Assembly: GCF_023684405.1 (NCBI RefSeq) | Contig: NZ_JAGSOI010000023.1 | Span: forward strand, 1-36,264 | Reading direction: 5' to 3' | Origin: Methanococcoides seepicolus | GTDB taxonomy: Archaea; Halobacteriota; Methanosarcinia; Methanosarcinales; Methanosarcinaceae | DNA length: 36,264 nt | Part shown: positions 3,782 to 28,968 of the stretch, piece after piece | Layout: every line of letters starts with the position of its first letter | Position numbering within the stretch: the first letter of the stretch is position 1 | Notes under the pieces: model-generated | Seen by the model: the letters and a program-made list of their open reading frames with translations, nothing else | Database searches by the model: none | What the model was told of the DNA's origin: nothing | Program-made: the position numbers and the translations under genes

Positions 3782-4957
3782 ATGGAACAGAAAGAAAACA
3801 ACATAGACATAACCTCTCAGCTTACAGAAAAGGGATGTGATGCTTTCCTGATAATGGGGAACTCGAATAATGCAGATGTGTATTACACAACACATTTTCT
3901 GGCAGCGGACCCATTCACATATATACAGACAAAAAATGGAGAAGAGACCCTTATCGTTTCCAGCATGGAACTGGGCAGGGCAAAGATAGAGGCCCGGGTC
4001 GAGACCGTACAAACAATGCAGGAATATGGATTTAGTGAGAAGATGAAAGAGAGGAAGGATGGCGAACTCGCATACTGTGATTGTCTGGCAGCGGTCTTCC
4101 AGAGAATGGGTGCTAAACACATCATGGTACCGCGCGATTTTCCCCTTTTTACTGCCCAGACACTGAAAGAGCTGGGGTTCACTATCATTCCTGCAAAGAG
4201 CCCTTTCAAGGAACTGAGGACAAGGAAGGACAAGGAACAGATCGAGAAGATAAAAGAGGCACAATTTGCTTGTGAGAAAGCAATGGAAACTGCCATTAAT
4301 ATAATTGCAAGGTCTGAGGTCAAAGAAGGTGTCCTATACAGTGATGAAGTGCCCATAACCTCTGAGACCATACGTATAGCCATCGAACACACCCTTCTGG
4401 ACCATGGCTGTGAAGCAGAAAGCACGATTGTTGCCTGCGGTAAGAATTCCGCAAACCCCCATTGGGAGGGAGAGGGAGATATCAAGGCCAACCAACCCAT
4501 AGTCATTGATATATTCCCCCGCAACAAAAGAAGTCGCTATTTTGCAGATATGACACGGACGGTCCTTAAAGGGGAAGCTCCTGAAAAACTAAAGGAAATG
4601 TATGAAGCAGTCCATGCAGCACAGGAAGCAGCATTTGCAGTATTAAGACCAGGGATCCTTTATAGTGATGTGCATAATGCCGTCTGTGACGAGTTCGAAA
4701 AGAGAGGGTATGGCACCATAAGAAGTGATTCGAAGGTAGGTTTCATTCACTCGACCGGGCATGGTGTAGGATTGGACATACATGAATTACCTTCTGTTTC
4801 CCTGCAGGAAGTAGAGGTTAAGCAAGGCCATGTCGTTACGATAGAACCGGGACTCTACTATCCGGAGCTTGGCGGGATAAGGATCGAAGATATGGTAGTC
4901 ATAACCGCAGATGGTTTTGAGAATCTGACAAAAATGGAAAAGGAATTTGTAGTTTGA
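3782..4957 (+). CDS. pepQ: M24-family Xaa-Pro dipeptidase/aminopeptidase
   Basis: Cytoplasmic metallopeptidase that removes an N-terminal residue before proline or splits X-Pro dipeptides. The 391 residues divide into a creatinase-like N-terminal domain (about 1-150) and the pita-bread catalytic domain. All five metal ligands of the M24 family can be placed: D243 in VIDIFPR, D256 in FADMTRT, H327 in STGHGVG, E355 in TIEPGLYY and E369 in IRIEDM. The sequence does not tell prolidase from aminopeptidase P with certainty. No clear ribosome binding site precedes the ATG; a TATA-like AAAATATAAG lies near 3716-3725. The stop overlaps the reading space of the next M24 gene (methionine aminopeptidase), so the two are probably co-transcribed. 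Several long antisense frames over this gene are shadows. Confidence 0.88.
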   Translation: MEQKENNIDITSQLTEKGCDAFLIMGNSNNADVYYTTHFLAADPFTYIQTKNGEETLIVSSMELGRAKIEARVETVQTMQEYGFSEKMKERKDGELAYCDCLAAVFQRMGAKHIMVPRDFPLFTAQTLKELGFTIIPAKSPFKELRTRKDKEQIEKIKEAQFACEKAMETAINIIARSEVKEGVLYSDEVPITSETIRIAIEHTLLDHGCEAESTIVACGKNSANPHWEGEGDIKANQPIVIDIFPRNKRSRYFADMTRTVLKGEAPEKLKEMYEAVHAAQEAAFAVLRPGILYSDVHNAVCDEFEKRGYGTIRSDSKVGFIHSTGHGVGLDIHELPSVSLQEVEVKQGHVVTIEPGLYYPELGGIRIEDMVVITADGFENLTKMEKEFVV

Positions 4958-27936: not shown

Positions 27937-28101
27937 AAGGAATTCCTCAGTAATTGGAATAATAAAACATAGTGTGTTCTAATATGACTGATAGAAATCA
28001 AGTACATAATATTAATATGTTGGGTTGATACGGGGCCAACTGCCCCATCAGGTCATGCCTATAATATGATGAGCATGCGCACCAAATCATTGATTAGATA
28101 A

Positions 28102-28109
28102 TATATAAG
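28102..28109 (+). promoter_or_regulatory. TATA box of a small plus-strand gene
   Basis: TATATAAG within ATAATATATAAGT predicts initiation near 28130 and a leader of about 30 bases to the ATG at 28163. Confidence 0.45.
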
Positions 28110-28162
28110 TAGTAGCATGACTGACTGTTAATTAGGAATGGAAAGAAAAGGTGGTACTTACC

Positions 28163-28264
28163 ATGAGAACATCGAACTTCAAACTGGAACTTGTGGATTC
28201 CATATGGGGAACCATTAAACTTTCTTTTGTGGAAGTTGAAGATAAGGACGAAAAGCCCCCTTGA
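28163..28264 (+). CDS. Candidate 33-residue small protein
   Basis: ATG at 28163 to TGA at 28262-28264 encodes RTSNFKLELVDSIWGTIKLS followed by an acidic FVEVEDKDEKPP tail. Support comes from a strong TATA box at 28102 and AGGTGG at 28149-28154 before the ATG. It has the look of a small beta-hairpin protein with a charged tail. A direct repeat TGACGCAG (two copies about 16 bases apart) follows the stop. No family recognised; the length alone makes this uncertain. Confidence 0.4.
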   Translation: MRTSNFKLELVDSIWGTIKLSFVEVEDKDEKPP

Positions 28265-28397
28265 CGCAGACTTGCTCTGACGCAGGCGCATAACAAAAGC
28301 ATAATGATATTGTGAAATAAGGACGAAATAAAAAAAATCCATTCAGGAAATTTCCCGAACAGATGGTCTCACAGGATGAGTTGTAACAAGATATCGA

Positions 28398-28538
28398 TCA
28401 CAGCATATCCTGCACCTTATCTATTTTAAAAAGACTACTGCGGTCCATTTTGCCATCTGTACTTATATTTATAGAAAACGCCAGTGTAGAATCACTGTTC
28501 TCGACCGGCTGTAAATATAGCAAGGTCATATCTTCCAT
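28398..28538 (-). CDS. Small protein, 46 aa, tandem paralogue of the 55-aa protein upstream
   Basis: Codes for EDMTLLYLQPVENSDSTLAF, then INISTDGKMDRSSLFKI and a KVQDML tail. GGTGAT lies three bases before the ATG and GAGGAGG a little further up. Its core aligns without gaps after FS to the neighbour at 28583-28750: LLY, then 11-12 residues, FS, five residues, DG, three residues, R, then L-(Y/F)-(R/K)-I. This agreement of two independent frames is the main evidence that both are genes. I do not recognise the family. It follows the paralogue by 44 bases on the same strand. Confidence 0.6.
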   Translation of the reverse strand: MEDMTLLYLQPVENSDSTLAFSINISTDGKMDRSSLFKIDKVQDML

Positions 28539-28582
28539 GTTATCACCATCTTTTCAAACCTCCTCATTTTATAATACCCCCA

Positions 28583-28750
28583 TTAATTGGACCTATTGTA
28601 GCCATGCCCGGAATAAATGCGATACAATCGATTTCTTTTGACGCTGCCATCCTCTTTCACTATAGACGAGAAGACAACCGCAGGATCAATTCCCTTTTGT
28701 GGACTATACAGCAAGACATTGTTCAAAAGATTTTCACATTTCTCAACCAT
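28583..28750 (-). CDS. Small protein, 55 aa, tandem paralogue of the 46-aa protein downstream
   Basis: The ATG at 28750 has a strong GGAGGGG site upstream and starts VEKCENLLNNVLLYSPQKGI, followed by DPAVVFSSIVKEDGSVKRNR and a LYRIYSGHGYNRSN tail. In-frame codons upstream to 28780 are run-through. The core (LLY...FS-x5-DG-x3-R-x2-LYRI) matches the 46-residue neighbour, which lacks the N-terminal helix and the long tail. A single cysteine and no membrane segment suggest a small cytoplasmic beta-rich protein. Function unknown. Confidence 0.6.
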   Translation of the reverse strand: MVEKCENLLNNVLLYSPQKGIDPAVVFSSIVKEDGSVKRNRLYRIYSGHGYNRSN

Positions 28751-28968
28751 AGTATTACCCCTCCAAATACTGAATTTCATCCCAGCTACTTTTAAAAGCA
28801 GTACAGGAAAACCTAAAAGGCAGGGAATATGGATTTACGCTTTGTAAGTATCCACAGACCCCCAAACTAACCTTAAAACTAAGTTAGCTATCTCAGTATA
28901 AATAGTATTGTAAATGGATAACTATTATTATCTATGAGAATAACATATCATGCAATATATTCAAACAA

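Follow-up and report, generated by a model that had tools for sequence, protein, structure and literature searches.

A tandem pair of paralogous microprotein genes in Methanococcoides seepicolus, found in only three genera of Methanosarcinaceae

Do two adjacent, very short frames on the minus strand of a Methanococcoides seepicolus contig encode proteins, are they copies of a single gene, and what might their products do? The window (hereafter, the whole stretch of 36,264 nucleotides analysed; nearest named relatives M. alaskense, a Methanococcoides MAG and M. vulcani) had been reported in a first-pass annotation to carry minus-strand frames of 55 and 46 codons, 44 bp apart, each preceded by a ribosome binding site and sharing the core LLY...FS-x5-DG-x3-R-x2-L(Y/F)(R/K)I. 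Both frames (hereafter referred to as A and B) were recovered with this spacing, together with GGAGGGG before A and GGTGAT before B, and the core is present in A and B, ungapped after FS (Table 1).

Table 1. Features of the A/B locus, in window coordinates; those of A and B include the stop codon
Feature	Coordinates	Strand	Basis
Gene A, 55-aa basic microprotein	28583..28750	-	55 codons + stop; orthologues, pN/pS, omega=1 rejected
Gene B, 46-aa acidic paralogue of A without C-terminal tail	28398..28538	-	46 codons + stop; orthologues, pN/pS, omega=1 rejected, homology to A
Shine-Dalgarno GGAGGGG of A	28758..28764	-	Sequence; 7 nt before the ATG of A
Shine-Dalgarno-like GGTGAT of B	28542..28547	-	Sequence; 3 nt before the ATG of B
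Conserved TATA-like box CAATACTATTTATACT, probable promoter of the unit	28895..28910	-	Near-invariant in ten aligned genomes; putative promoter role
Leader, ~120 nt, with predicted hairpins	28751..28875	-	Predicted folds; putative transcription start
Terminator-like hairpin and T run after B	28327..28364	-	12-pair stem, 4-nt loop; conserved in ten genomes
Third conserved tiny gene, 33 aa MRTSNFKLELVDSIWGTIKLSFVEVEDKDEKPP	28163..28264	+	Convergent with B; GGTGGT before ATG

A and B are real coding genes. Pooled pN/pS values were 0.175 for A and 0.37 for B, and exceeded 1 in the two shifted sense frames. Under a codon model (kappa scanned under the null), omega=1 was rejected for both A (lnL -526.4 vs -574.3, 2dlnL 96) and B (lnL -516.9 vs -532.9, 2dlnL 32), and variable sites were distributed over the three codon positions as 11/7/35 in A (p 2e-6) and 14/13/29 in B (p 0.014). 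The first-pass annotation had named frame-breaking indels or a lack of purifying selection as grounds for rejecting its reading of the two frames; instead, codon-level selection proved to be purifying in both, and their lengths changed by whole codons. The clades of Methanococcoides differ by nine such codons in A (55 vs 64 aa) and by one in B, while other indels occur in the spacer and flanks. An antisense frame over A, which shares its third positions, also had a low pN/pS (0.235), but is interrupted by stops in relatives and was rejected as a gene.

The open reading frame list contained a longer version of A (65 aa), from an upstream ATG at 28780, the start of which is not conserved. The start at 28750 is supported because GGAGGGG precedes it and relatives conserve the same start; GGAGGG or GGGGAC was found at the corresponding place in all ten aligned genomes. 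In clade 2, B is preceded by GAGG, about 7-8 nt before its start, instead of GGTGAT.

The flanking signals make A and B look like a self-contained unit, with a TATA-like box, a leader, A, B and a terminator hairpin, the promoter and terminator being predictions. In the alignment of ten genomes, the TATA-like box lies about 150 bp before A, within a poorly conserved stretch. Terminator hairpins argue for separate transcription of the unit in other genera too: between B and a peptidase gene in G022, a genome of a third genus, lies a hairpin (stem CCATTCAG/CTGAATGG) with a T run, and another hairpin with a T run follows A in the Methanohalophilus genome G017. In the four clade-1 genomes, predicted folds of the leader sequester the ribosome binding site of A by pairing, and such masking could provide translational control. 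The leader folds otherwise in the six clade-2 genomes, for which a different long hairpin was predicted. Covariation support was slight and the folds differ between the two clades, and we make no claim of a conserved leader structure. The stretch TCATCCTGTG (28370-28379, minus strand), between the end of B and the terminator, is identical in all 10 aligned Methanococcoides genomes, a degree of conservation exceeding what a spacer should need. This stretch and the predicted leader structure would fit a function conserved at the RNA level, as a regulatory transcript with leader and terminator, the peptides being by-products of translation. Such a reading is highly improbable: third positions vary most while amino acids are kept, even across genera with saturated DNA, and the leader itself differs between clades.

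The first-pass annotation had judged the agreement between the two frames hard to obtain by chance and had taken it as evidence of a duplicated family. A comparison of the single A and B sequences of this genome was not significant (E 0.74), so that homology can be demonstrated only through orthologue profiles. A profile-profile comparison (hhalign) aligned A and B over 33 columns with P 4.5e-6. Likewise, the A profile recovered B at E 2.2e-4 (G006) and 5.0e-4 (G009), and the B profile recovered the Methanohalophilus A of G112 (E 2.4e-5) and A of G005 (E 1.5e-3). F, S and G are invariant in the joint alignment. The profiles thus indicate that A and B are paralogues, copies of one ancestral gene, and, with both frames under purifying selection, chance agreement no longer accounts for their likeness. 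A further match in this genome (C72:4295-4417, E 0.47) was not recovered by the A profile and was taken as chance.

The two products differ in charge and at their C-termini. A is basic in all three genera in which it was found (pI 9.3-10.2), with 16 residues invariant across them, ten of which lie in the tail from R39 to R53. This basic and aromatic tail, R-x-R-x-Y-R-x-Y-x-G-H-x-Y-N-R, is the most conserved part of the protein. In B, which is acidic (pI 4.1-4.5), this tail is missing. AlphaFold predicted a three-stranded antiparallel beta meander for both, with good confidence for B (pLDDT 87) and low confidence for A (pLDDT 63).

The search of Methanosarcinales genomes proposed in the first-pass annotation recovered a genuine family, confined to three genera of one family. 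A was present in 9 of the 10 other Methanococcoides genomes (71-95% identity), and B in the same nine (51-85% identity), adjoining A in the same order. The exception, G003, is split into about 230 contigs and also yielded no match for gatC or the M24 peptidase, so the absence of A and B from it means little. A was also found in seven Methanohalophilus genomes and in G022; outside Methanococcoides, B was present in G022, and Methanohalophilus has A alone. No relatives beyond these three genera were detected among 186 genomes of the order or in a 393-genome sample of the phylum, and a scan with the A motifs of one genome from each of 84,980 species matched only Methanococcoides and Methanohalophilus. 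By these searches, the family is restricted to three genera of Methanosarcinaceae.

The genes lie between an EamA transporter gene and gatC in Methanococcoides, the M24 gene being elsewhere (3782-4957 in the window). In G022, G110 and G112, they (or A alone) are directly upstream of the gene for an M24 Xaa-Pro peptidase, on the same strand, and in G017 and G111, some 5.5 kb separates A from the M24 gene. In G017, the intervening DNA carries a long surface-protein gene (about 1830 codons, opposite strand; L120 747-6248); close relatives of this genome have A and the M24 gene next to each other. The M24 protein tree weakly joined G022 with Methanohalophilus (support 63); if this topology represents species history, B would, tentatively, have been lost in Methanohalophilus. 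Where A is absent, including in G116, which groups with Methanohalophilus, the region upstream of the M24 gene showed no remnant of it.

Two tiny adjacent genes, the first basic and the second acidic, with a genome position that differs between genera, might suggest that A and B work like a toxin and its antitoxin, or belong to a mobile or defence element, with acidic B neutralising basic A. We consider this very unlikely: A persists without B in seven Methanohalophilus genomes, contrary to the expectation that a toxin is always accompanied by its antitoxin; the pair occupies a single fixed location in Methanococcoides; and there was no PADLOC, phage, plasmid or viral match.

Neither the single proteins nor their alignments matched Pfam, NCBIfam, PHROGs or PADLOC at the curated cut-off or E <= 1e-3, and there was no significant match to RNA-binding families. 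Phages and plasmids queried with Methanohalophilus A likewise gave no match; in viral contigs, patterns matched, but no relative was confirmed. In the PDB, sequence searches gave no significant match: the chains hit included uL22, CARD9 and bL19, with best E-values of 0.025-0.47 for uL22 and bL19. The non-significant best profile matches included ribosomal hairpins (uL22, E 0.07; bL19, E 0.26), which we treat as a pointer only. A weakly resembles a stretch of uL22, and its segment AVVFSSIVKEDGSVKRNRLYRI weakly resembles a 23-residue stretch of bL19; A, uL22 and bL19 are all basic, but neither resemblance is significant. By sequence, membership of either ribosomal protein family is not supported at these E-values, no member having a Pfam ribosomal match, and Methanohalophilus A as a PDB query gave no match to uL22. 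Structure comparisons with the B model returned numerous unrelated proteins (no better than E 0.07 in Foldseek or Z 4.4 in VIA-align) and are uninformative because the model is a three-strand meander. No literature on these genes, including expression data, was found in the open-access papers searched; within those papers and libraries, the description of the family as undescribed holds. Small proteins have been found by Ribo-seq in a related methanogen, Methanosarcina mazei, MtrR being an example (PMC11456600, PMC13370731). Like A and B, they have fewer than 70 aa, are encoded by small intergenic frames and are conserved in few genera, whereas A and B form a tandem paralogous pair with opposite charges. 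The two seem unlikely to be orthologues of these proteins, because homologues of A and B were found in only 3 of the 14 genera of the family.

We propose that an ancestral gene of about 47 codons was duplicated in tandem within Methanosarcinaceae, giving rise to A and B, which would both be made from one small transcription unit. A would have kept the basic aromatic tail and would most likely bind an anionic surface, namely RNA and probably the ribosome. B would have lost the tail and become acidic, and would most likely pair edge to edge with A, capping or adjusting its binding. We infer binding to RNA or the ribosome, and tuning by B, because A is basic with a conserved tail and B is acidic without one. 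Coding capacity, homology, restricted distribution, opposite charges and tail conservation are established, but the proposal as a whole is tentative, at rather less than even confidence: there was no significant match to an RNA-binding family, and confidence in the A model is low. Methanohalophilus has A on its own, so that B is dispensable for A there. A more specific scheme appears unlikely: the copy that is acidic and lacks the tail would have evolved as an antagonist or tuner of a basic copy binding RNA or the ribosome, and the leader hairpin covering the ribosome binding site of A would also control its synthesis.

On this evidence, an equally likely role for A and B is to serve a larger protein complex, as small accessory subunits or as modulators, with the tail of A docking on protein rather than RNA; this, too, we regard as possible but doubtful. 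Several characterised small proteins of methanogens act in this way, such as MtrR and MtrI of the Mtr complex of Methanosarcina mazei (PMC13370731), the invariant aromatic tail could dock equally well on a protein, and the occurrence of A without B in Methanohalophilus would be expected of a stand-alone modulator. Nevertheless, no partner is suggested by a conserved neighbour (the genes adjoin EamA and gatC in Methanococcoides, but the M24 peptidase gene in Methanohalophilus and G022), and in G022 a terminator precedes the peptidase gene.

A third conserved tiny gene faces B (Table 1). It was found in all the Methanococcoides genomes examined except G003, and omega=1 was rejected for it (lnL -323.8 vs -333.0, six sequences). 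There was no match at a convincing E-value in other genera, and none in Pfam. Rfam gave a sub-threshold match to sR11, a C/D box sRNA, at 28062-28121 on the plus strand (25.2 bits vs a cut-off of 39). This match is probably due to chance, because it overlaps a TATA-like stretch before the third gene and its C box is not conserved in every relative.

A and B constitute a well-supported, lineage-restricted microprotein family, marked by a tandem duplication and unmatched in any library searched. The apparent split in role between a basic copy with a tail and an acidic copy without one allows the divergence of a very small gene to be traced across three genera, Methanohalophilus retaining a one-gene state for comparison. 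In this genome, one short intergenic region of Methanococcoides harbours three conserved genes of fewer than 60 codons, of a kind that automatic annotation may miss.
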